From assembly GCA_018823835.1 (NCBI GenBank), contig JAHJHT010000007.1, positions 1-64,000 on the forward strand: a stretch of DNA of 64,000 nucleotides, given 5' to 3'. The translations under genes were made by a program, and so were the position numbers. Shown piece after piece: positions 6,900 to 36,561 of the stretch (position 1 is its first letter; every line of letters starts with the position of its first letter). The notes beneath the pieces are model-generated. The model saw nothing but the letters and a program-made list of their open reading frames with translations, was not told the DNA's origin and did no database searches. This DNA comes from Alphaproteobacteria bacterium. GTDB lineage: Bacteria > Pseudomonadota > Alphaproteobacteria > Rhizobiales > Rhizobiaceae.

Positions 6900-7176
6900 A
6901 AGGCAGGTTTCCTTTTTATGTGTTTATGCGACGCGTCAAAGACAAAGCGTTGCCTGAATACAAGTCTAGCTGCTTCTCCGGCGCCTGCAAAGCTTGAATG
7001 GTACGCACCGGTTGCCCGGAAATTGAGCAGTCCGGCTCTCCTGGATTTCAGAGTGCCTTGGCAGGCAAGCGCATTAGACACCCCAACGCACAACGGAAAT
7101 GTGGTGCGATGGTTCCCGCCTGCGCGGCCTGCCCCAGCCGATCGAACGGCGAAAAGGCTCCGTCTCGGCTTTCCCT

Positions 7177-7201
7177 GCTGTATACGAGTGGATATAACGA
7201 T
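7177..7201. promoter_or_regulatory. Putative ModE operator upstream of modA
   Basis: Bottom strand ATCGTTATATccactcgTATACAGC. The left half ATCGTTATAT matches the remembered half-site of the E. coli modA ModE operator; located 46 nt before the modA ATG. Confidence 0.65.
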
Positions 7202-7246
7202 GTGCGGATTGGCTGGCGCATCGCCTCGCCATCGAGGAGCGGCCGG

Positions 7247-8035
7247 ATGGGAGTTTCAGGCAGGTTGGCCGTTGTCGTGGCAGTAGTCGCCACGCTGTGC
7301 AGCGCGACCGCTTGCATGGCCGGCGAGCGGGTCACGGTCTTTGCGGCGGCAAGCCTGAAGAACGCGCTCGATGCCGTAACCGAAAGCTGCACCGCCGAAA
7401 CCGGAATCCCGGCAAGCATATCCTATGCGGCGAGCTCGGCGCTCGCCCGTCAGATCGAGGCCGGCGCGCCGGCCGACATCTTCATCTCGGCCGACCTCGA
7501 ATGGATGACCTACCTGTCAGACCGTAAGCTGACGAAGCCGGAGTCGGAGACGAGGCTGCTCGGCAACCGCATCGTTCTCATCGCGCCTGCGGATTCCGCC
7601 GCCGAGGCGACGATCGGCCCGGGCTTCGATCTCGCCGGGCTGCTCGGCGGAGGCAGGCTCGCCATCGGTGACGTCAGGGCCGTTCCCGCCGGCAAATATG
7701 CCATGGCCGCGCTCCAGTCGCTCGGCGTCTGGCAGTCGGTCGGCGACCACACGGCGCAGGCCGAGAATGTTCGGGCTGCGCTGAAACTCGTGGCGACCGG
7801 AGAGGCGCCGCTCGGCATCGTCTACCGGACCGACGCGGCGGCCGAGCACGGCGTGCGGATCATTGATACCTTTCCCGAGAGCTCGCACCCGCCGATCATC
7901 TACCCGGCCGCGGAACTGGCGGAGGCGCGGGAACCGGAAGCGTCGACATTCTTCGCCTGTCTTGGCTCGGCGCGCGCGCGGCCGCTCTACGAGGCAGAGG
8001 GCTTCACGGTGCTCGCCCCCGCTGCGGCGAACTGA
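7247..8035 (+). CDS. modA: Molybdate ABC transporter substrate-binding protein
   Basis: Signal peptide then VTVFAAASLKNALDAV, ISYAASSALARQIEAGAPADIFISAD, GNRIVLIAP; followed by modB and modC. Confidence 0.95.
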   Translation: MGVSGRLAVVVAVVATLCSATACMAGERVTVFAAASLKNALDAVTESCTAETGIPASISYAASSALARQIEAGAPADIFISADLEWMTYLSDRKLTKPESETRLLGNRIVLIAPADSAAEATIGPGFDLAGLLGGGRLAIGDVRAVPAGKYAMAALQSLGVWQSVGDHTAQAENVRAALKLVATGEAPLGIVYRTDAAAEHGVRIIDTFPESSHPPIIYPAAELAEAREPEASTFFACLGSARARPLYEAEGFTVLAPAAAN

Positions 8036-23642: not shown

Positions 23643-23847
23643 CCGATAAGTCAGACAATAAGAAATTCACGGAATTATTGCGGGTTGCGAAAAAAATGCT
23701 CTCCGGAGCCCGGTTTGGCGGTTGCACTCGGCCCGGTTTTGGGTTGTAGCTTCTGCCGGGAGGAATGCGCGGGGTTCATCTGTGATGAAGTGCAGCGCTG
23801 GTCGGGGCGGCGCTCAAGCGTTTCGGCCGCCATCGGGAGGAGGGTTC

Positions 23848-25302
23848 ATGTATCTCGGCATCGATCTCGGCACGTCGAGCGTCAAGGCGCTGCTGATCGA
23901 CGCGGACCAGCGCGTGGTGGGCTCGGCGACCGCACCGCTCAAGGTTTCGCGTCCGCATCCGGGCTGGTCAGAGCAGGATCCCAACGACTGGATCGCCGCT
24001 ACCGCCAAGGCACTTGAGGGCCTTCAGGCGGGACGGCCTAAGGAACTTGCCGCCGTCGAGGGGATCGGCCTCTCCGGCCACATGCATGGCGCGACGCTCG
24101 TCGACAACCGCGACGTGGTGCTGCGCCCCTGCATTCTCTGGAACGATACGCGCAGCCACAAGGAGGCTGCCGCGCTTGATGCCAATCCGGCGTTCCGCAA
24201 GATCAGCGGCAATATCGTCTTTCCGGGCTTCACCGCGCCGAAGCTCGCCTGGGTCAAGAACAACGAGCCTGAGATTTTCGCTCGCGTCGCCAAGGTCCTG
24301 TTGCCAAAGGATTTCCTGCGCCTCTGGCTGACCGGCGAGCACATGTCGGAAATGTCGGACTCGGCTGGCACCGCCTGGCTCGACGTTGCGAAGCGGGGCT
24401 GGTCGGACGAGCTGCTGGCCGCGACCGATCTCAGCGAAAGCCAGATGCCGACGCTGGTCGAGGGCACCGAAGCGGCGGGCGGGCTGCGCGCCGATCTGGC
24501 GTCGAAATGGGGCCTGCGGGCAGGCATTCCGGTTGCCGGCGGCGCCGGCGACAATGCGGCCTCTGCCTGCGGCATGGGCACGGTCCGGGCTGGCCAGGCC
24601 TTCGCCTCGCTCGGCACGTCGGGCGTCATCTTCGCCGCCAACGGCGCCTATCTGCCCAACCCGGAAAGCGCCTTGCACACCTTCTGCCACGCCCTGCCGG
24701 ACACCTGGCACCAGATGGGCGTCATCCTGTCGGCGACGGATTCGCTGAACTGGCTATCGGGCATCACCGGCAAGGATGCCGGCGCGCTGACCGACGAGCT
24801 CGGCGAGACGTTGAAGGCGCCAACCGGAGTCACCTTCCTGCCCTATCTCTCTGGCGAGCGCACACCCCACAATGACGCTTCGATCCGCGGCGTCTTTGCC
24901 GGCCTCGGCCACGAAGCGGGCCGTCCGGTGCTGACCCAGGCGGTGCTCGAGGGCGTCGCCTTTGCCTTCCGCGACAGCCTGGAGGCGCTGCGCGCCGCCG
25001 GGACCGACCTCGACCGCGTCACCGCGATCGGCGGCGGCTCGCGCTCGCGCTACTGGCTGCGCGCCATGGCGACAGCGCTCGACCTGCCGGTCGAGGTTCC
25101 GGCCGACGGCGATTTCGGCGCCGCCTTCGGCGCGGCGCGGCTGGGGCTCATCGCTGCTACCGGCGCAGACCCGTTCGCGGTCTGCACGACGCCGAAGACC
25201 GAGGCGACGATCGAACCCGACCGTTCGCTGTCGGCCGCCTATTCGGATGCCTATCAGCGCTACCGCGCACTCTATCCTGCCATCAGGGGAGTTATGGGAT
25301 GA
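23848..25302 (+). CDS. xylB: Xylulokinase
   Basis: [56 protein letters not shown] overlap with xylA. Confidence 0.95.
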
Positions 25303-26609
25303 CCACCGGTTTCTTTGGCGACATCAAGCCGATCAAGTACGAGGGGCCGGAGAGCACCAATCCGCTGGCCTACCGTTTCTACAATCCCGACGAGAAGGTC
25401 GCGGGCAAGCGGCTGGAAGACCATATGCGCTTCTCGATCGCCTACTGGCACAGCTTCGCCTGGCCGGGCGGCGATCCGTTCGGTGGCCAGACCTTCGACA
25501 GGCCGTGGTTCGGTGACACGATGGAACTGGCGAAGCTGAAGGCCGACGTCGCCTTCGAGATGTTCTCGCTGCTCGGCGTTCCCTATTACTGCTTCCACGA
25601 TGCCGACGTGCGGCCCGAGGCGGAAACCTTTGCAGAAAGCGCGGCGCGGCTCGACGAGATCGCCGACTATTTTGCCGGCAAGATGAAGAAGACAGGCACC
25701 AAGCTCCTGTGGGGCACAGCCAACCTGTTTTCGCACCGCCGCTACATGTCGGGCGCCGCGACCAATCCGGACCCGGATGTCTTTGCCTATGCCGCGGCGA
25801 CGGTGAAGAGCTGCATGGACGTGACCAAGCGGCTGAAGGGCGAGAACTACGTGCTGTGGGGCGGCCGCGAGGGCTACGAGACGCTGCTCAACACCGATCT
25901 CAAGCGCGAGTCGGAGCAGGCCGGGCGCTTCCTGCAGATGGTCGTCGACTACAAGCACAAGATCGGTTTCAAGGGCACGATCCTGATCGAGCCGAAGCCG
26001 CAGGAGCCGACCAAGCACCAGTATGACTACGACGTCGCAACGGTCTACGGCTTCCTCAAGCGCTTCGGGCTGGAGAACGAGGTCAAGGTCAACATCGAGC
26101 AGGGCCACGCGATCCTGGCCGGTCATACCTTCGAGCACGAACTGGCGCTGGCCGCCGCACTCGGCATCTTCGGCTCGATCGACATGAACCGCAACGACTA
26201 CCAGTCCGGCTGGGACACCGACCAGTTCCCCAACAATGTTCCGGAGATGGCGCTCGCCTACTACGAGGTGCTGCAGGCCGGCGGGTTCAAGACGGGTGGC
26301 ACCAATTTCGACGCCAAGCTGCGCCGCCAGTCGCTCGACCCGCAGGATCTCCTGATCGCCCATATCGGCGCGATGGATTGCTGCGCACGCGGTCTCAAGG
26401 CCGCGGCCAAGATGATCGAGGACAAGGCGCTGATCGGGCCGCTCGAGGCGCGCTATGCAGGGTGGAAATCGGCCGAGGGCAAGGCGATGCTGTCGGGCAA
26501 GCGCACGCTCGAGGAGATCGCCGAGCGCGTGGTGAAAAAGGGCATCGAGCCCCAGCCGCGTTCCGGCCAGCAGGAACTGCTCGAGAACATCGTCAACCGC
26601 TACGTCTGA
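25299..26609 (+). CDS. xylA: Xylose isomerase
   Basis: [75 protein letters not shown]. Confidence 0.97.
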
Positions 26610-27012: not shown

Positions 27013-27987
27013 TCAGCCGCGACGCATGCGCGCCGGCGGCTGGCCGAAGGCGCGCGAGAAGGCGCGCGAAAAGGCCGCCGCCGATGAAAAGCCGGTGCGG
27101 CCGGCGATGTCGGCCATCGGCTCTGCTGTGTCGAGCACGAGGCGGCGGGCCGCGTTCAACCTGAGGCGCAGATAGTAGGCGCCCGGCGTCTCGCCAATGG
27201 CGCGGGAAAACGTCTTCTCCAGGGTTCTCGCCGTCACCCCGGTGCGGCGCGCGATGGCGGCCACCGTGAGGGGCCGGTCGACATGCGATTCCATCAGGCG
27301 GATGGCGCCGGCAAGCCGCGGGTCGAAGCCGTCGAGGCGGCCGAGCGAGACGAGCGGCTGTGCGTCGGTGGCGGCGCGCGCCTGGTCGTAGATAAAGACG
27401 CTGGCGACATCGAGCGCCACCGCCATGCCGAGGCGGGCGCGCACCAGATGCAGCATCAGGTCAAAGGTCGGCGAGGCGCCACCGGCGGTGAACACCGGCC
27501 CGTCGATGACATAGCGGTCGGGGCGGATGTCGGCGCCGGGAAAGGCAGCGGCGAAATCCTCCAGATCCTCCCAGTGCGTCGTCGCGGCACGCCCCTCGAG
27601 CAGGCCGGCGCGTCCGAGCAGCCACGTACCGGCCTCGATGCCGCCGACGGCGCGCGTTGCTCTTGCGGCCCGGCGAAAACCTGCAACGAGGGCCGCCGTT
27701 TCGTAGCGCGTGCCGAAGCCGCCGATGGCGATCAGCACATCGGTCTTCTGTGTCGCGTCGAAGCGACCAGACACCGCGATCGGCAGGCCGGAGGTGGTGA
27801 CGGCCGGCTGGCCGTCGGCCGAAACGAGCTGCCAGTCGAACATGGTGGCGCCGGCAATGCGGTTCGCCGCGCGCAGCGGATCGACCGCGGAGGCGACGCA
27901 CATGATCGAGGCGCCGGAAAACACCAGCAGCGTCACCCTGAGCGCTGTATCGTCGGAGCGGAAGATTGACGTGGCTTCGCTTTTCAT
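27013..27987 (-). CDS. GlxA family (AraC-type) transcriptional regulator
   Basis: DJ-1/PfpI-like N-terminus (LVFSGASIMCVASAVDPLRAANR) and C-terminal AraC HTH (MADIAGRTGFSSAAAFSRAFSRAFGQPPARMRRG). ORF trimmed to ATG 27987; divergent from the carnitine-type operon. Confidence 0.9.
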   Translation of the reverse strand: MKSEATSIFRSDDTALRVTLLVFSGASIMCVASAVDPLRAANRIAGATMFDWQLVSADGQPAVTTSGLPIAVSGRFDATQKTDVLIAIGGFGTRYETAALVAGFRRAARATRAVGGIEAGTWLLGRAGLLEGRAATTHWEDLEDFAAAFPGADIRPDRYVIDGPVFTAGGASPTFDLMLHLVRARLGMAVALDVASVFIYDQARAATDAQPLVSLGRLDGFDPRLAGAIRLMESHVDRPLTVAAIARRTGVTARTLEKTFSRAIGETPGAYYLRLRLNAARRLVLDTAEPMADIAGRTGFSSAAAFSRAFSRAFGQPPARMRRG

Positions 27988-28146: not shown

Positions 28147-29058
28147 ATGCCGCTGACCATGAACCGCGAGGTCTTCATCACCTGTGCCGTGACCGGCTCG
28201 GGCGGGACGCAGGACCGCAGCCCGCATGTGCCGCGTTCGCCGAAGCAGATCGCCGATTCGGCGATCGACGCAGCCAAGGCCGGTGCGGCCATCGTCCACT
28301 GCCATGTGCGCGATCCCGAGACCGGCAAGCCGCGCCGCGACGTCGCCCTCTACCGCGAGGTGACTGAACGCATCCGCGACGCCGATGTCGATGTCGTGTT
28401 GAACCTGACCGCCGGCATGGGCGGCGACATGGTGTTCGGCGACGTTGAAAGCCCGTTGCCGCTGAAAGCGCAGGGCACCGACATGGCGGGCGCGTCCGAG
28501 CGCGTCGAGCATGTGCGCCAGTGCCGGCCGGAGATCTGCACGCTCGATTGCGGCACAATGAACTTCAACGAGGCCGACTACGTGATGACCAACACGCCCG
28601 GCATGCTGCGCGCCATGGGCCGCATGATGACCGAGATGGGCGTGAAGCCGGAGATCGAGGCCTTCGACACCGGCCACCTGTGGTTCGCCAAGCAGCTGGT
28701 CGAGGAGGGCGTGCTGGCGCCCGACGCGCTGGTGCAGCTCTGCATGGGCGTGCCGTGGGGCGCGCCGGACGACCTCAACACCTTCATGGCGATGGTCAAC
28801 AACGTGCCGTCGGACTGGAACTGGTCGGCCTTCTCGATCGGCCGCAACCAAATGGCCTATGTTGCGGCCGCGGTGCTCGCCGGCGGCAATTGCCGCGTCG
28901 GTCTTGAGGACAATCTGTGGCTCGACAAGGGCATGCTGGCAACCAACGCCCAGCTGGTCGACCGTGCGGTCGGCATCGTCGAGAATATGGGCGCCAGGGT
29001 GCTCGGTCCCGAAGAGGTCCGCAAGAAGCTGAACCTGACCAAGCGGGCGCCGATCTGA
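28147..29058 (+). CDS. BKACE (DUF849) family beta-keto acid cleavage enzyme, probable 3-dehydrocarnitine cleavage enzyme
   Basis: VFITCAVTGSGGTQDRSPHVPRSPKQIADSAIDAAKAGAAIVHCHVRDP; dehydrocarnitine specificity inferred from the neighbouring carnitine dehydrogenase. Confidence 0.85.
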   Translation: MPLTMNREVFITCAVTGSGGTQDRSPHVPRSPKQIADSAIDAAKAGAAIVHCHVRDPETGKPRRDVALYREVTERIRDADVDVVLNLTAGMGGDMVFGDVESPLPLKAQGTDMAGASERVEHVRQCRPEICTLDCGTMNFNEADYVMTNTPGMLRAMGRMMTEMGVKPEIEAFDTGHLWFAKQLVEEGVLAPDALVQLCMGVPWGAPDDLNTFMAMVNNVPSDWNWSAFSIGRNQMAYVAAAVLAGGNCRVGLEDNLWLDKGMLATNAQLVDRAVGIVENMGARVLGPEEVRKKLNLTKRAPI

Positions 29059-29084: not shown

Positions 29085-29708
29085 ATGGAAACCGTGAAGT
29101 TCACCGCGATGAAGGACGGCGACCGCGAGGACTACGCCTTCCTGACCGAGCATGAGATCGCCTATGCGGAGAAGACAGCCGACCGGCTGCTCGACACGCT
29201 GGTGCAGCTCGACGAGGGCCTGTCCGGCTACAAGATCACGCGGCTCGGCCATTCGCTGCAGGCGGCGACACGCGCCTGGCGCGATGGCGCCGATTCCGAC
29301 TGGATCGCCTGCGCCCTGCTGCACGACATTGGCGACATCTACGCGCCCTACAACCATGACGAATATGCCGCTGCGATCCTGAGGCCCTTCGTGCGCGAGC
29401 AGTGCACATGGGTGGTCGAAAAGCATGGCGACTTCCAGCGCCTCTATTACGCGCATCACACCGGCGGCAACCCGCATGCGCGCGACCGCTTCGCCGGCCA
29501 TCCCTATTTCGACGACTGCGACCGGTTCTGCGAGCGATGGGACCAGTCGAGCTTCGACCCCGACTACGACACGTTGCCGCTCGAGACCTTCCGGCCCTCC
29601 GTGCTGGAGGTCTTTGCGCGCAAGGCCTACGACCCGGCGGTGATCCGGGCGGGCGACCGCGTGCCGCTCACCAATCCTGAAACAGCCAGACAAAGAGCTT
29701 CGACATGA
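29085..29708 (+). CDS. HD-domain protein, possible HD-domain oxygenase (MIOX/PhnZ/TmpB-like)
   Basis: GHSLQAATRAWRDGADSDWIACALLHDIGD...NHDEYAAAILRPF...VVEKHGDF...WDQSSFDPDYDTLP; ATGA overlap with carnitine dehydrogenase. Confidence 0.75.
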   Translation: METVKFTAMKDGDREDYAFLTEHEIAYAEKTADRLLDTLVQLDEGLSGYKITRLGHSLQAATRAWRDGADSDWIACALLHDIGDIYAPYNHDEYAAAILRPFVREQCTWVVEKHGDFQRLYYAHHTGGNPHARDRFAGHPYFDDCDRFCERWDQSSFDPDYDTLPLETFRPSVLEVFARKAYDPAVIRAGDRVPLTNPETARQRAST

Positions 29709-30796
29709 GCATCATCGAAAAGGCCGCGGCCATCGGCGGCGGGGTCATCGGCGCGGGCTGGGTCGCAAGGCTCCTGCTCAACGGCATCGACGTGGCGATC
29801 TACGATCCGGACCCCGAGGCAGACCGCAAGGTCGCCGAGGTGATGAAGGGCGCGCGCCGCGCCTACAAGCAGATGGTGCCCGGCGGCCTGCCGAAGGAAG
29901 GCAAGCTGACCTTCGCCAAGACCATTGCCGAAGCGGTGAAGGATGCCGACTTCATCCAGGAAAGCGTGCCCGAGCGGCTCGACCTCAAGCACAAGGTACT
30001 GGCTGAGATCGACGCGCATGCGCCGGCCAATGCCATCATCGGCTCGTCGACATCGGGCATACTGCCGTCCGACATGCAGGTGGCGATGAAGCGCCACCCG
30101 GAGCGGCTGGTCGTCGGCCATCCGTTCAACCCTGTCTACCTGCTGCCGCTGGTCGAGATCGTCGGCGGCAAGGAGACGTTTCCCGAGGCTGTCGAGGTTG
30201 CGCGGGAAATCTACGAATCGATCGGCATGAAGCCGGTGGTCATCCGCAAGGAGATCGAGGCCTTCGTCGGCGACCGCCTGCTCGAGGCGGCCTGGCGCGA
30301 GGCGCTCTGGCTGGTCAAGGACGACATCGTCACCGTCGAGGAACTCGATGACATCATGCGCTATTCCTTCGGCATCCGCTGGGCGCAGATGGGCATGTTC
30401 CAGGTCTATCGCGTCGCTGGCGGCGAAGCCGGCATGCGCCACTTCATGGCGCAGTTCGGTCCGTGCCTGAAATGGCCGTGGACCAAGCTGATGGACGTGC
30501 CGGAGCTGACCGACGAGCTGGTCGACAAGATCGCCGAGCAGTCCGACGCGCAGGCGCACGGCCTGTCGATCCGCCAGCTCGAGCGCATCCGCGACGACAA
30601 TCTGGTCGCCATCATGGAAGCGCTGTCGAAGCAGAACAAGGGCAAGGGCTGGGGCGCCGGCGCGCTGCACAACGACTACACCAAGCGCCTCGCCAAGCTG
30701 GCGTCGAACAAGCCGAAGGCTTCGAAGGCCGCCGTGAAGGCCAAGGCCGAAAAGCCGGTCAAGAAGGCCAAGACGCCAAAGAAAAAGAAGGGCTGA
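29705..30796 (+). CDS. L-carnitine dehydrogenase (3-hydroxyacyl-CoA dehydrogenase family), with Lys/Ala-rich C-terminal tail
   Basis: AAIGGGVIGAGWVARLLLNGIDVAIYDPDPEA, FIQESVPERLDLKHKVLAEID, GHPFNPVYLLPLVEIVGG, DRLLEAAWREALWLV. Confidence 0.88.
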   Translation: MSIIEKAAAIGGGVIGAGWVARLLLNGIDVAIYDPDPEADRKVAEVMKGARRAYKQMVPGGLPKEGKLTFAKTIAEAVKDADFIQESVPERLDLKHKVLAEIDAHAPANAIIGSSTSGILPSDMQVAMKRHPERLVVGHPFNPVYLLPLVEIVGGKETFPEAVEVAREIYESIGMKPVVIRKEIEAFVGDRLLEAAWREALWLVKDDIVTVEELDDIMRYSFGIRWAQMGMFQVYRVAGGEAGMRHFMAQFGPCLKWPWTKLMDVPELTDELVDKIAEQSDAQAHGLSIRQLERIRDDNLVAIMEALSKQNKGKGWGAGALHNDYTKRLAKLASNKPKASKAAVKAKAEKPVKKAKTPKKKKG

Positions 30797-30800
30797 GGCA

Positions 30801-31964
30801 ATGGATTTCGGCCTCACGGATGAACAGCGGCTGATCGTCGAGACGACGCGCGCCTTTGTCGAGAACGAGCTTTACCCGCACGAGGCGGAGGTTGAACGCA
30901 CCGGCCTGCTGCGCCCGGAACTGATTGCCGAGCTGAAGGCCAAGGCCATCGAGGCCGGGCTCTACGCCGCCAACATGCCGGAAGAGGTCGGCGGCGCGGG
31001 GCTCGATACCGTGACATGGCTGCTCTACGAGAAGGAACTCGGCCGCGCGAATTACGCGTTGCACTGGACCTGCGTGGCGCGCCCCTCGAACATCCTTTGC
31101 GCGGGCACCGAGGAGCAGCGCGAAAAGTACCTCTATCCATGCATCCGCGGCGAGAAGTCCGACTGCCTGGCGATGACCGAGCCAGGCGCCGGCTCGGACT
31201 TGCGCGGCATGAAGGCAACCGCCGTGCAGGATGGCGACGACTGGGTGCTGAACGGCACCAAGCATTTCATCAGCCATGCCGACATCGCCGATTTCGCCAT
31301 CGTCTTCATGGCCTCGGGCGAGGAGGAGACGCGGCGCGGCAAGCGCAAGAAGATCACCGCCTTCTTCGTCGACAAGGGCACCAAGGGCTTCAACGTGCGC
31401 GACGGCTACAGGAACGTCTCGCATCGCGGCTACACCAATTCGATACTCGAATTCGACGATTGCCGGCTGCCTTCAAGCCAGGTTCTGGGCGAAGTGCACA
31501 AGGGGTTCGAGGTCGCCAACAGCTGGCTCGGCGCGACCCGGCTGCAGGTCGGCGCGACCTGCCTCGGCCGGGCCGAGCGGGCGCTCGGCCACGCCATCGA
31601 CTACGCCGCGCAGCGCGAGCAGTTCGGCCAGAGCATCGGCAAGTTCCAGGGCGTATCCTTCAAGCTCGCCGACATGGCCGTCGAGCTGAAGGCTGCCGAG
31701 CTGATGATCCTCGAGGCGGCGTGGAAATACGATGCCGGCACCGTCACCGACCAGGACATGGCGATGGCCAAGCTGAAGGCTACCGAGATGCTCGCCTTCG
31801 TCGCCGACGAGGCGATCCAGATCCATGGCGGCATGGGGCTGATGGACGAGCTGCCGCTTGAGCGTATCTGGCGCGATGCGCGCGTCGAGCGCATCTGGGA
31901 AGGCACCAGCGAGATTCAGCGCCACATCATCTCGCGCGCGCTGCTTCGGGCGGTCGGAGGCTAA
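30801..31964 (+). CDS. Acyl-CoA dehydrogenase (gamma-butyrobetainyl/crotonobetainyl-CoA type inferred)
   Basis: CLAMTEPGAGSDLRGMKATAVQDGDDWVLNGTKHFISHA, IHGGMGLMDELPLERIWRDARVERIWEGTSEIQRHIISR. Confidence 0.9.
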   Translation: MDFGLTDEQRLIVETTRAFVENELYPHEAEVERTGLLRPELIAELKAKAIEAGLYAANMPEEVGGAGLDTVTWLLYEKELGRANYALHWTCVARPSNILCAGTEEQREKYLYPCIRGEKSDCLAMTEPGAGSDLRGMKATAVQDGDDWVLNGTKHFISHADIADFAIVFMASGEEETRRGKRKKITAFFVDKGTKGFNVRDGYRNVSHRGYTNSILEFDDCRLPSSQVLGEVHKGFEVANSWLGATRLQVGATCLGRAERALGHAIDYAAQREQFGQSIGKFQGVSFKLADMAVELKAAELMILEAAWKYDAGTVTDQDMAMAKLKATEMLAFVADEAIQIHGGMGLMDELPLERIWRDARVERIWEGTSEIQRHIISRALLRAVGG

Positions 31965-31973
31965 GTCGCCGCA

Positions 31974-32711
31974 ATGCCACCCGCGCCGCTTCGCGAGACC
32001 GACCTCTACCCGCCCGTCAAGCTGATGCTCGAAGGGCAGGGCTATGTCGTCAAGAGCGAGATCGGGGCGGCCGACATCGTTGCGGTACGCGGCGACGAGG
32101 AGCCGGTCATCGTCGAGCTGAAGACGAAATTCTCGCTGTCGCTGTTCCACCAGGCGGTGCAGCGGCAGGCCCTGACGGACACTGTCTATGTCGCCGTGCC
32201 GCGCGGCGAGGGGAAGCCTTTCATGAGTTCGCTCGCCGGCAACACGGCGCTCTGCCGCCGCCTGGGGCTGGGGCTGATCACGGTGCGCATGAGGGACGGT
32301 TTCGTCGAGATCCATTGCGATCCGGCAGCCTACAGACCGCGCCAGTCGAAGCCGCGCAAGGCGCGGCTGCTGCGCGAATTCGCCCGCCGCGTCGGCGACC
32401 CCAACAATGGCGGGGCGACGCGCGTCGGCCTGGTCACGGCCTACCGGCAGGACGCGCTGCTCTGCCTCAAGGTCCTGGAAGCGAGCGGCCCGACAAAGGC
32501 CGCGGAAGTGGCGCGGCAGGCGCGCGTAAAGCATGCCCGCCGCCTGATGGCAGACGATCATTACGGCTGGTTCGAGCGCGTCGCGACCGGCATCTACGAC
32601 CTGACGCCGAAGGGCCGCATTGCCGTCACCGACTATGCGGCCGAACTCGAACGGCTCGACGCGGCGATCGAGCAGGCAACCGGCAACGACGGGACAGTGG
32701 ACTTCAGATGA
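31974..32711 (+). CDS. DUF2161 family putative PD-(D/E)XK nuclease-fold protein
   Basis: DLYPPVKLMLEGQGYVVKSEIGAADIVAVRGDEEPVIVELKTKFSLSLFHQAVQRQ (D...ExK core); stop overlaps the next start as ATGA. Confidence 0.8.
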   Translation: MPPAPLRETDLYPPVKLMLEGQGYVVKSEIGAADIVAVRGDEEPVIVELKTKFSLSLFHQAVQRQALTDTVYVAVPRGEGKPFMSSLAGNTALCRRLGLGLITVRMRDGFVEIHCDPAAYRPRQSKPRKARLLREFARRVGDPNNGGATRVGLVTAYRQDALLCLKVLEASGPTKAAEVARQARVKHARRLMADDHYGWFERVATGIYDLTPKGRIAVTDYAAELERLDAAIEQATGNDGTVDFR

Positions 32712-34825
32712 GCGGTACGCGCGACATTTCCCGGCTCTTGCGGCCGAAATCCATTGCCGTCATCGGCGGCGGCTTCTTCGCGCCCAATGTCGTCAAGCAA
32801 TGCATCAAGATGGGCTTTGCCGGCCACATATGGCCGGTGCACCCGACGAAATCCGAGATCGAGGGCGTGGCGACCTTCGCTACGGTGGATGCGCTGCCCG
32901 GCGCGCCCGACGCAACCTTCATCGGCGTCAACCGGCACCTCACCATCGATATCGTGCGCTCGCTTGCCGAGCGCGGCGCCGGCGGCGCGATCTGCTTTGC
33001 CTCAGGCTTCCTCGAGGCCGGCGCCGATGATGCCGACGGGGCGCGGCTGCAGCAGGAACTGGTCAAGGCGGCCGGCGACATGCCGGTCATCGGGCCAAAC
33101 TGCTACGGGCTGATCAATTATGCCGACGGCGCCCTGCTCTGGCCGGACCAGCATGGCGGCCGGCGGCTTGCGCCCGGCGAGCGCGGCGTTGCCATCATCA
33201 CCCAGTCGTCGAACATCGCCTGCAACTTCACCATGCAGACGCGCGGCCTGCCGGTCGCTTTCCTGATGACGGCCGGCAACCAGGCGCAAACCGGCCTGTC
33301 GGAAATGGCGCTCGGGCTGATCGAGGACGAGCGCGTCTCGGCGCTCGGGCTGCACATCGAGGGTTTCGATTCCGTTGCCGGATTCGAGCGGCTGGCGGCG
33401 CGGGCGCGCGAACTGAAGAAGCCGATTGTCGCGATGAAGGTCGGCCGATCCGAGCAGGCGCGCACGGCGACGGTGTCGCATACGGCCTCGCTGGCCGGCT
33501 CCGACGCCGCTTCAGACGCTTTCCTGAAGCGTCTCGGCATCGCCCGCGTGGACGCCATCCCATCCTTCCTCGAGACCTTGAAGCTGCTGCATGTCGTCGG
33601 CCCGCTTTCCGGCCCGAAACTGTCCTCGATGAGCTGCTCGGGCGGCGAGGCGTCGGTGATGGCCGACAGCGCCGAGGGGCGGCGTGTCGGCTTTCCGAAG
33701 CTCGAGGCGGCGCACCACGCCCGCGTGAGGTCGACTCTGGGGCCTCTGGTGACCATCGCCAACCCGCTCGACTACCACACCTTCATCTGGAACGACGTGC
33801 CGGCGATGACCAAGGCCTTTTCGGCGATGGCGTCCGGCGGCTTCGACCTCAACATGCTGGTGCTCGATTTTCCGCGCTCGGACCGCTGCTCGGATGCCGA
33901 CTGGTGGGGGGCGGTGACAGCCTTCGAGGCGGCACTTTCGGCCAATGGCGCGCGCGGCGCCATCGTCGCCTCGATGGGCGAGAACCTTGCGGAAGCCTAT
34001 GCCGAGGGCCTGGTCGCAAAGGGCATCGTGCCGCTGCACGGCATTGTCGAGGCTTTCGACGCGGCCGAAGCCGCGTCCTTCATCGGCGAGGCCTGGGCGA
34101 AGGCCGACCGCGCCCCGGCCTCACCCTTGTGGAATGGTCGTATCGAAGGTTCCAATGGGGGAACTGACCAGCCGACACTGCCTGCCCGCCCCACCGAAGC
34201 CGCCGCCAAGGCGATGCTTGCCGGTTTAGGGTTGCCTGTACCGAAGGGCATCGAGGCCGGCTCCACCGACGAGGCGGTGGCCGCGGCGCACGAACTCGGC
34301 TTTCCGGTCGCCGTCAAGGCGCTCGGCCTGGCGCACAAGAGCGAGGCCGGAGCTGTCAGGCTGCATTTGCGCGACGAGGCGGCTGTTCGCGAGGCGGCAC
34401 ATGGCCTGATAGGGCTCGGCAGCGGGCTCTATGTCGAGCGCATGATTGCCAATAGTGTGGCCGAATTGATCGTCGGCGTGACGCGCGATCCGGTGTTCGG
34501 ACCGGTGATGACGCTGGGCTCCGGCGGCGTGCTGGTCGAGCTGCTGCGCGACAGTGCGACACTGCTCCTGCCGGCAAGCCGCGCAGACATCGAAGCCACG
34601 CTGCGCGGCCTGAAGCTGTTTCCGCTGCTCGACGGCTATCGCGGTAGGCCGAAGGCGGATCTCGCCGCCACCATCGATGCGGTTGCGGGTATTTCCCGTT
34701 TCGTGCTTGCCCATGCAGATCGCATAGAGGAACTAGACATCAACCCGCTCATTGCGTGTGCTGAGGGCGAAGGCGCCTGGATCGCCGACGCGCTGCTGAT
34801 TTTCACGGAGAATGCCCATGACTGA
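32708..34825 (+). CDS. ADP-forming acyl-CoA synthetase (acetate--CoA ligase family)
   Basis: LLRPKSIAVIGGG CoA-binding domain, VGPNCYG-like (VIGPNCYGLINY), ATVSHTASLAGSD, C-terminal ATP-grasp domain (GFPVAVKALGLAHKSEAGAV). Confidence 0.9.
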   Translation: MSGTRDISRLLRPKSIAVIGGGFFAPNVVKQCIKMGFAGHIWPVHPTKSEIEGVATFATVDALPGAPDATFIGVNRHLTIDIVRSLAERGAGGAICFASGFLEAGADDADGARLQQELVKAAGDMPVIGPNCYGLINYADGALLWPDQHGGRRLAPGERGVAIITQSSNIACNFTMQTRGLPVAFLMTAGNQAQTGLSEMALGLIEDERVSALGLHIEGFDSVAGFERLAARARELKKPIVAMKVGRSEQARTATVSHTASLAGSDAASDAFLKRLGIARVDAIPSFLETLKLLHVVGPLSGPKLSSMSCSGGEASVMADSAEGRRVGFPKLEAAHHARVRSTLGPLVTIANPLDYHTFIWNDVPAMTKAFSAMASGGFDLNMLVLDFPRSDRCSDADWWGAVTAFEAALSANGARGAIVASMGENLAEAYAEGLVAKGIVPLHGIVEAFDAAEAASFIGEAWAKADRAPASPLWNGRIEGSNGGTDQPTLPARPTEAAAKAMLAGLGLPVPKGIEAGSTDEAVAAAHELGFPVAVKALGLAHKSEAGAVRLHLRDEAAVREAAHGLIGLGSGLYVERMIANSVAELIVGVTRDPVFGPVMTLGSGGVLVELLRDSATLLLPASRADIEATLRGLKLFPLLDGYRGRPKADLAATIDAVAGISRFVLAHADRIEELDINPLIACAEGEGAWIADALLIFTENAHD

Positions 34826-35600
34826 CGTCGTCAAAACCCGCCGCGAAGGCGGTATCCTCGAGGTCACGCTCGACCGGCCGAAGGCCAACGCCATCGACCT
34901 GCAGACCTCGCGGCTGATGGGCGAGACCTTCAAGGCGTTCCGCGACGACCCGGAGTTGCGGGTCGCCATCGTGAAGACGGCGGGAGACAAGTTCTTCTCG
35001 GCCGGATGGGACCTCAAGGCGGCGGCCGGCGGCGACGCGGTCGACGGCGATTACGGCGTCGGCGGCTTTGCAGGCCTGCAGGAACTGCGCGACATGAACA
35101 AGCCGGTGATCGCCTGCGTCAACGGCATGGCGGTCGGCGGCGGCTTCGAACTGGCGCTGTCCTGCGACCTGATCTATGCGGCCGACGATGCGAGCTTCGC
35201 GCTGCCGGAAATCCGCGCCGGAACGCTGGCCGACGCGGCGACGCTGAAGTTGCCGAAGCGCATTCCCTACCACGTCGCCATGGACATGCTGCTGACGGGA
35301 CGCTGGATGGACGTCGCCGAGGCGCATCGCTGGGGCCTGGTCAACGAGGTACTGCCGAAGGACAAGCTCGAGGAGCGCGTCTGGGAAGTTGCCCGACTGC
35401 TGGAATCGGGACCGCCGCTCGTCTTTGCCGCGATCAAGGAAGTGGCGCGGGCCGCCGAGGGCATGGCTTTCCAGGACGCGATGAACCGCATTACCAAGCG
35501 GCAGTTCCGCACCGTCGACGAACTGTACGGTTCCGAGGACGGCATGGAAGGCTTCCGCGCCTTCGCGGAAAAGCGAGACCCGGTCTGGAAGGGAAAGTGA
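34818..35600 (+). CDS. Enoyl-CoA hydratase family, probable carnitinyl-CoA dehydratase (CaiD-like)
   Basis: LDRPKANAIDLQTSRLMGETFKAFRDDPELRVAIVKTAGDKFFSAGWDLK, GGGFELALSCDLIYAADDASFALPEI. Confidence 0.88.
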   Translation: MTDVVKTRREGGILEVTLDRPKANAIDLQTSRLMGETFKAFRDDPELRVAIVKTAGDKFFSAGWDLKAAAGGDAVDGDYGVGGFAGLQELRDMNKPVIACVNGMAVGGGFELALSCDLIYAADDASFALPEIRAGTLADAATLKLPKRIPYHVAMDMLLTGRWMDVAEAHRWGLVNEVLPKDKLEERVWEVARLLESGPPLVFAAIKEVARAAEGMAFQDAMNRITKRQFRTVDELYGSEDGMEGFRAFAEKRDPVWKGK

Positions 35601-35622: not shown

Positions 35623-36561
35623 ATGACCGACTACACGAAGCTGATCGACGCCGAAACCTGGGCCTATATCGACCGCGTCAACGCCTTTTATCCGCCCGAC
35701 ACGGTCGACTACACCGTTGACCAGCAGCGTGCGGTGTACGACCGCATGTGCCGGGCGTTTCACGCCGGCTACCCAGCCGGCGTGACGGCCAGCGACGCGA
35801 CGATCCCCACAGCGGCCACGGATATCCCGGTCCGCATCTACCGCAAGGCGGACAAGCCCGCGGCCTTGGTGCTCTACTTCCACGGCGGCGGCTTCATTCT
35901 CGGCGGGCTCGACAGCCATGACGATGTCTGCGCCGAGATCTGCGACCGCACCGACTTCAAGGTCGTTTCGGTCGACTATCGGCTGGCACCGGAACACGTC
36001 CACCCGGCAGCCTTCGAGGACGCACTGGCGGCCTATGAATGGTCAGCGGATGCTTACGGAATACCGATCGTGCTGTGCGGCGATTCCGCCGGCGGCAATC
36101 TCGCCGCCGCCGTCAGCCACGCGACGCGGGGCCACAAGGTCAGGCCAGCCGGGCAAGTTCTGATCTATCCGGGCCTCGGCGGCGACCGCAGCAGGGGCTC
36201 CTACGTGACGCATGCCGAGGCGCCGCAGCTGACGATGCGTGATCTCGAATTCTACAAGCATGTGCGCACTGGCGGCGTCGACCGCACGGGCGACATCACG
36301 CTGTCGCCGCTTGCCGACGCCGATTTCGCCAACCTGCCGCCGACGGTGCTCATCACTGCCGAATGCGACCCGCTGTCCTCTGACGGCGCGGCCTATGGAA
36401 GCCGTGTTGCGGAAGCGGGCGGGCGGGCGTATTGGCTCGAGGAGCCGGGCCTGGTGCATGGCTACCTGCGGGCGCGCCACAGCGTTGCACGGGCGCGCGC
36501 AAGTTTCACCCGCATCGTCGAGGCGGTCGGCGCGCTGGGCAGGCAGGAGTGGATCTGGTGA
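35623..36561 (+). CDS. Alpha/beta hydrolase (HSL family)
   Basis: LYFHGGGFILGGLDSHD, VSVDYRLAPEHVHPAAFEDALAAY, LCGDSAGGNLAAA, EEPGLVHGYLR. Confidence 0.92.
   Translation: MTDYTKLIDAETWAYIDRVNAFYPPDTVDYTVDQQRAVYDRMCRAFHAGYPAGVTASDATIPTAATDIPVRIYRKADKPAALVLYFHGGGFILGGLDSHDDVCAEICDRTDFKVVSVDYRLAPEHVHPAAFEDALAAYEWSADAYGIPIVLCGDSAGGNLAAAVSHATRGHKVRPAGQVLIYPGLGGDRSRGSYVTHAEAPQLTMRDLEFYKHVRTGGVDRTGDITLSPLADADFANLPPTVLITAECDPLSSDGAAYGSRVAEAGGRAYWLEEPGLVHGYLRARHSVARARASFTRIVEAVGALGRQEWIW

Follow-up and report, generated by a model that had tools for sequence, protein, structure and literature searches.

What does a protein of the HD superfamily contribute to an operon for carnitine catabolism? The question is raised by a 64,000-nucleotide stretch of DNA from a member of the Rhizobiaceae (hereafter, the window), in which the forward-strand gene at 29085..29708 encodes a 207-amino-acid protein that resembles HD-domain diiron oxygenases, with the putative metal ligands H56, H80-D81, H91, H114 and D153. 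A prior sequence-only reading had singled out this gene as possibly coding for an oxygenase of a trimethylammonium compound. The open reading frame and its coordinates, the residues H56, H80-D81, H91 and H114 and the stretch WDQSSFDPDYD reported there are all recovered by translation, and a strong Shine-Dalgarno sequence (gggaggagg) lies ahead of the ATG at 29085. The gene does lie, as had been described, between those for a beta-keto acid cleavage enzyme (BKACE; end at 29058) and carnitine dehydrogenase (LcdH), and the ATGA overlap with the latter is real, the TGA stop codon of the HD gene occupying 29706-29708 and the LcdH start codon 29705-29707.

The HD gene and its operon

The gene content of this region is consistent with an operon that would convert gamma-butyrobetaine and carnitine to betaine. 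The L-carnitine 3-dehydrogenase LcdH (29705..30796; this and the following genes are on the forward strand unless stated otherwise) scores 597.3 bits against the NCBIfam carnitine 3-dehydrogenase model NF005716 (cut-off 592), and BKACE is adjacent to it across the inserted HD gene, the combination that marks an L-carnitine operon. The match is confined to the dehydrogenase portion, model positions 1-339 of 495; the C-terminal thioesterase domain of the PRK07531 model is missing, and the protein ends in a Lys/Ala-rich tail. BKACE itself (28147..29058), of the DUF849 type, matches keto acid cleavage family models below their equivalog cut-offs and presumably, from what is understood of the pathway, converts 3-dehydrocarnitine and acetyl-CoA to betainyl-CoA. 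Downstream of LcdH are an acyl-CoA dehydrogenase (30801..31964), by context of the gamma-butyrobetainyl/crotonobetainyl-CoA type (CaiA model, 197 bits, below the cut-off of 540); an NDP-forming acyl-CoA synthetase found by profile search (32708..34825), probably for betaine acid activation; an enoyl-CoA hydratase (34812..35600) with crotonobetainyl-CoA hydratase as its best model (318 bits vs a cut-off of 500); and an HSL-type alpha/beta hydrolase (35623..36561) that is kept in Mesorhizobium clusters. A GbdR-like AraC/GATase transcriptional regulator (27013..27951, reverse strand; GbdR model, 201 bits vs a cut-off of 480) is divergently oriented. Neither a hydroxylase partner for the HD protein in this operon nor a thioesterase gene in the cluster was recognized.

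Some other features of the region deserve mention. The NDP-forming synthetase occupies the place expected for CaiC or CaiB in betaine acid activation. Between the acyl-CoA dehydrogenase and synthetase genes lies an ORF (31974..32711), which we take to be DUF2161-like; it has no NCBIfam match, is present in only some relatives and is missing from this place in nearly all Mesorhizobium clusters. Xylulokinase-like and xylose isomerase genes (23722-26609), located upstream of the operon, are kept in most Mesorhizobium relatives.

Within the Rhizobiaceae, a match to the HD protein was detected in 25 of 121 genomes and LcdH in 75 of 121. Among the 30 best LcdH loci of this family, the HD gene is placed between BKACE and LcdH in eight and is lacking in 22, in most of which BKACE directly adjoins LcdH. 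The HD gene is thus an optional extra in a pathway already complete, an argument against its catalysing an indispensable step, for instance that of a thioesterase. One might otherwise look to this protein for the betainyl-CoA thioesterase that the operon lacks, or for some other hydrolysis within its pathway, given that the window LcdH has no thioesterase domain, that no thioesterase gene was recognized in the cluster and that the best match in the same genome to the thioesterase of locus L169 is on another contig. Such a role is nevertheless highly improbable and is rejected here because the HD gene co-occurs with other thioesterase candidates, namely a longer, 477-amino-acid LcdH of thioesterase-fused size (L304), an SGNH-hydrolase-like gene (L294) and separate thioesterases (L169, L352). 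Furthermore, we know of no HD protein that acts as a thioesterase.

Metal site, fold and substrate pocket

The residues H56, H80, D81, H91, H114 and D153 are identical in all 103 alphaproteobacterial family members (33-100% identity), and their columns line up with the metal ligands in 16 control proteins of the TmpB and Phn-HD types. Given this invariance, the ligand pattern noticed in the initial reading is not a matter of chance; the downstream Asp residues invoked there, among which the choice had been left open, can now be narrowed down to D153, in WDQ, as the sixth-ligand position. The resulting H...HD...H...H...D arrangement is the six-ligand pattern of HD oxygenases (PMC8177086).

Profile, sequence and structure comparisons converge on the same relatives. 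In single-sequence profile searches, the HD protein matched the models of Phn-HD (E = 1.4e-8), PhnZ1 (5e-7), TmpB (5.5e-5), Pfam HD (9e-5) and MIOX (3e-4), and a single-sequence search of the PDB retrieved PhnZ and TmpB. With a profile of 37 family members, all 37 of which match the Phn-HD and TmpB models, the PDB search yielded TmpB (1.7e-12) and PhnZ (2e-12) and nothing else below E = 0.3. The best AlphaFold2 model, built from an input alignment of 22 sequences, has a mean pLDDT of 88.3 (range over five models, 57 to 88) and a pTM of 0.85; in a Foldseek search of the PDB with this model, the ten matches with E <= 1.5e-4 (probability 1.00) are all PhnZ or TmpB structures, the next match being at E = 1.7. 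The likeness to the mixed-valent diiron oxygenases PhnZ and TmpB proposed earlier therefore stands at the levels of profile, PDB sequence and predicted fold, as does oxygenase-type rather than YfbR-type kinship, but a close link to MIOX does not. The motifs NHDEY and HHTGG look MIOX-like; however, the C-terminal half of MIOX (2huo residues 196-285) scores -2 bits against the family profile, and 1104 of 2000 shuffled sequences do as well or better, so that the MIOX-like reading was discarded.

Hydrolases account for the majority of characterized HD proteins, and one of them, YqeK, is dinuclear (PMC8177086), so the six-ligand motif by itself is no proof of an oxygenase. A YfbR- or YqeK-like phosphohydrolase with nucleotides or a CoA-related phosphate as substrate would moreover accord with the Pfam HD matches and with the automatic annotation of some family members as phosphohydrolases. 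Yet the searches produced no score for any HD hydrolase model or structure, whereas PhnZ and TmpB score in every test, and the neighbouring genes, considered below, are those of oxygenases and quaternary-amine metabolism, all of which renders this alternative unlikely. In particular, the profile, PDB sequence and fold searches returned no YfbR-type nucleotidase or phosphohydrolase: the grouping with nucleotidases that would have spoken against the initial proposal did not appear, and no HD phosphohydrolase is near the predicted fold. Quite probably, the protein is of the HD-domain diiron oxygenase type. That it had gone unrecognized as such is true only in part, since PGAP already applies the name 'inositol oxygenase family protein' to one homologue of 68% identity.

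In all likelihood, this kinship does not extend to function on phosphonates. The scores of the HD protein stay far below the curated cut-offs of the TmpB (NF049941, 23 vs 300 bits), Phn-HD (TIGR03276, 34.4 vs 214.6) and PhnZ1 (NF052439, 29.4 vs 300) models, and also fall below the Pfam gathering cut-off for MIOX (PF05153, 21.1 vs 25). The phylogeny called for in the initial reading was run against TmpB and Phn-HD, and in it the HD family forms a clade of its own, set apart by a long branch with support of 100; six control rows were omitted from both this tree and the comparison of pocket residues. The YxxE loop gates O2 in PhnZ and TmpB. It is also a substrate-binding loop, represented by Y24 and E27 in PhnZ (PMC8177086). 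In the HD family, the loop is replaced, with position 46 variable and position 49 aromatic, as opposed to Y in 16/16 and E in 15/16 controls. Position 118 is Gln in 102 of 103 members (K in 16/16 controls), Arg is not among the four commonest residues at position 150 (R in 16/16 controls), and the phosphonate-anchor S (16/16 controls) is likewise replaced. We take the K (of HVxAK), S and R (of RxxD) to be the residues that anchor the phosphonate in TmpB and PhnZ. Given the separate clade, the lost loop and anchors, and the presence of a bona fide TmpB alongside this HD type in three genomes (G022, G155 and G149), it can be concluded that the metal site was kept while the substrate pocket was rebuilt.

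Orthology with TmpB is accordingly ruled out by score, clade and pocket residues. A true phosphonate oxygenase with TmpB or PhnZ function, feeding the operon with betaine from trimethylammonium phosphonates, might still be imagined from the existence of TmpA-type partners, one of them above the TmpA cut-off. With 23 bits against a TmpB cut-off of 300, a separate clade supported at 100, the equivalents of K118, R150, Y46 and E49 lost although kept in 15-16 of 16 controls, and bona fide TmpB encoded in the same three genomes, we consider it most improbable.

Gene neighbourhoods and candidate substrates

A match to the HD protein is present in 91 of 290 alphaproteobacterial genomes, about 80 of these being strong. 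Among immediate same-strand neighbours in other Alphaproteobacteria, 16 of 79 are nonheme or Rieske oxygenases (TauD, 6; DIOX/2OG, 5; PhyH, 3; Rieske, 2), whereas at a distance of four to five genes from the HD gene in these loci the count is 2 of 79 (Fisher p = 7e-4, with related genomes counted that are not independent). Immediately upstream of HD homologues there is often an Fe/alpha-ketoglutarate or Rieske hydroxylase gene, in some cases one for a TmpA-type trimethylammonium hydroxylase, and within the Rhizobiaceae there are PhyH-HD pairs (L300, L301) and a TauD-HD pair (L306). The TauD partners are of the TmpA/GBBH type, with 334-353 bits against the TmpA model (cut-off 400), a threshold that the partner in L352 passes at 422.5 bits. 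In one sample of 290 genomes, TmpA-type TauD genes are found beside this HD gene in 7 places, beside TmpB/Phn-HD in 17 and beside neither in 34; thus, this HD protein takes the slot of TmpB.

Quaternary-amine genes adjoin two of the hydroxylase-HD pairs. In L352, from another class, a gene for a choline-type binding protein is accompanied by the HD gene and a TmpA-type hydroxylase gene overlapping it by 4 bp, together with GbdR, BKACE, LcdH, a thioesterase and a second GBBH-like gene. On a Pseudomonas plasmid (L365), a TmpA-like hydroxylase gene and, after a 1-bp gap, the HD gene are associated with genes for a choline-binding protein, choline dehydrogenase (BetA) and a betaine-aldehyde-type dehydrogenase (BetB). 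Moreover, the HD gene adjoins thioesterase, BKACE and LcdH genes in L169 and is near sarcosine oxidase and GbdR-like genes in L173, L175 and L178, the latter names coming from sequence reading and not from profiles. These contexts, above all the TmpA-type partners and the loci L352 and L365, point to trimethylammonium catabolism, as the initial reading had supposed from the window.

Further observations concern individual loci. In L173, the HD homologue is directly preceded by a gene with a weak MTHFR-type match (6979-7968) and followed by sarcosine oxidase-like genes. Tandem duplicate HD genes occur in L182 (2630-4726) beside a PhyH gene and in L184 (3375-4749) beside a Rieske-cluster gene. 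TmpA-like dioxygenases without an adjacent HD gene are found near DIOX-type genes in L361 and L362, the latter with an enolase-superfamily-like gene.

Many family members, however, have contexts unrelated to quaternary amines, and the substrates of the family therefore probably vary. The nearest relatives outside carnitine clusters (G155, G253, G022) have no informative neighbours, and the closest non-operon relatives adjoin valS or LysR-type genes. It is conceivable that the window protein is an HD-type diiron oxygenase for an alcohol unrelated to carnitine or other trimethylammonium compounds, which settled in the carnitine operon as a side acquisition. The breadth of the family, with class II aldolase, amidase and zinc alcohol dehydrogenase genes among its partners besides PhyH, DIOX and Rieske, and the optional presence of the HD gene in carnitine clusters favour such a reading. 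We nonetheless regard it as rather doubtful, given that carnitine loci with the HD gene are spread over no fewer than two distinct tree branches (those of the Rhizobiaceae and of L169), in addition to L352, and that the best-defined partner is of the TmpA/GBBH type. On balance, a trimethylammonium substrate is somewhat preferred for the protein in the window operon.

From homology, predicted fold, ligands, the replaced pocket and gene contexts, all computed here, we infer an iron protein with the following activity, substrate and products. By a modest preference, we propose an O2-dependent oxygenase of a 2-hydroxy-trimethylammonium compound, most likely carnitine, yielding glycine betaine. An Fe(II)/Fe(III) pair would be coordinated by the six residues H56, H80, D81, H91, H114 and D153; from the binding of O2 to one of the two irons, a superoxo species would arise and take the carbinol C-H of (CH3)3N+-CH2-CH(OH)-X, followed by cleavage of the C-X bond to give glycine betaine, with the carboxylate at the former carbinol carbon, and X-OH. 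O2 binding, carbinol hydrogen abstraction and C-X cleavage are modelled by analogy on TmpB and PhnZ (PMC8177086, PMC10574752), X being phosphonate in the TmpB counterpart. The partner hydroxylase (TmpA/GBBH-type, PhyH, DIOX or Rieske) would supply the alcohol in the relatives. For the window operon, its source would be not a hydroxylase but the CoA pathway (acyl-CoA dehydrogenase and hydratase) or carnitine uptake, which makes carnitine (X = CH2-COO-), or else D-carnitine, the leading candidate. The hydroxyl group of carnitine sits at the right carbon, and by electron count the cleavage would formally produce betaine and glycolate. Within the oxygenase model, an alternative substrate would be D-carnitine, on which LcdH presumably does not act.

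The more specific proposal that, in a single step without CoA, O2 serves to cleave L- or D-carnitine between C2 and C3 to glycine betaine and glycolate is put forward only tentatively. A carnitine oxygenase would be redundant, because betaine is already supplied by the canonical LcdH/BKACE route; also counted against the trimethylammonium oxygenase model as a whole are the lack of a hydroxylase partner in the window, the restriction of the HD gene to 8 of 30 loci and the absence of the YxxE loop. Were it true, carnitine would have a further route, separate from those of LcdH/BKACE, CntAB and anaerobic reduction, and the enzyme would be the first of the HD oxygenases to act on a trimethylammonium compound that is not a phosphonate.

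Implications and comparison with known systems

HD oxygenases of characterized function have myo-inositol or phosphonates as their substrates (PMC8177086, PMC10574752). We found no paper on this HD family, and nothing relevant on HD proteins in connection with carnitine, in the open library searched. The assignment of the family to an uncharacterized branch of diiron oxygenases, kin to enzymes that cleave phosphonates, is well supported as regards the oxygenase type; carnitine and choline contexts offer concrete candidates for its likely substrates. A widespread clade that kept the diiron ligands and lost the phosphonate pocket implies that ordinary catabolism of carbon and nitrogen includes further bond cleavages that require O2, and the pairing with four hydroxylase families suggests that 'hydroxylate, then cleave' is a module of general use. 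If true, the finding would also correct 'phosphohydrolase' and 'inositol oxygenase' annotations.

With the YfbR and YqeK phosphohydrolases, the window protein shares only membership of the HD superfamily. The myo-inositol oxygenase MIOX (2HUO; PF05153) resembles it in the six-ligand motif and would share with it a diiron HD chemistry that breaks a C-C bond beside a carbinol; the Pfam match is weak and found in 13 of 37 family members, and MIOX is not among the Foldseek matches listed for the HD model. PhnZ (4MLM, 4MLN, 4N6W, 4N71; TIGR03276, NF052439), a 2-amino-1-hydroxyethylphosphonate oxygenase and the best Foldseek and phmmer match, has the same ligand pattern, and its tandem logic with an Fe/alpha-ketoglutarate hydroxylase recurs in the HD family with PhyH-type partners; unlike PhnZ, the window protein lacks a phosphonate pocket. 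TmpB (6NPA; NF049941), an oxygenase of (R)-1-hydroxy-2-trimethylaminoethylphosphonate, is comparable in fold, in its six ligands, in size and, in several genomes, in the slot after a TmpA-type hydroxylase, and glycine betaine, the product of TmpB, is also that proposed for the window protein. In contrast to TmpB, the latter belongs to a separate clade, has YxxE and K/S/R replaced (by variable, aromatic, Q and non-R residues) and resides in an operon without a hydroxylase.
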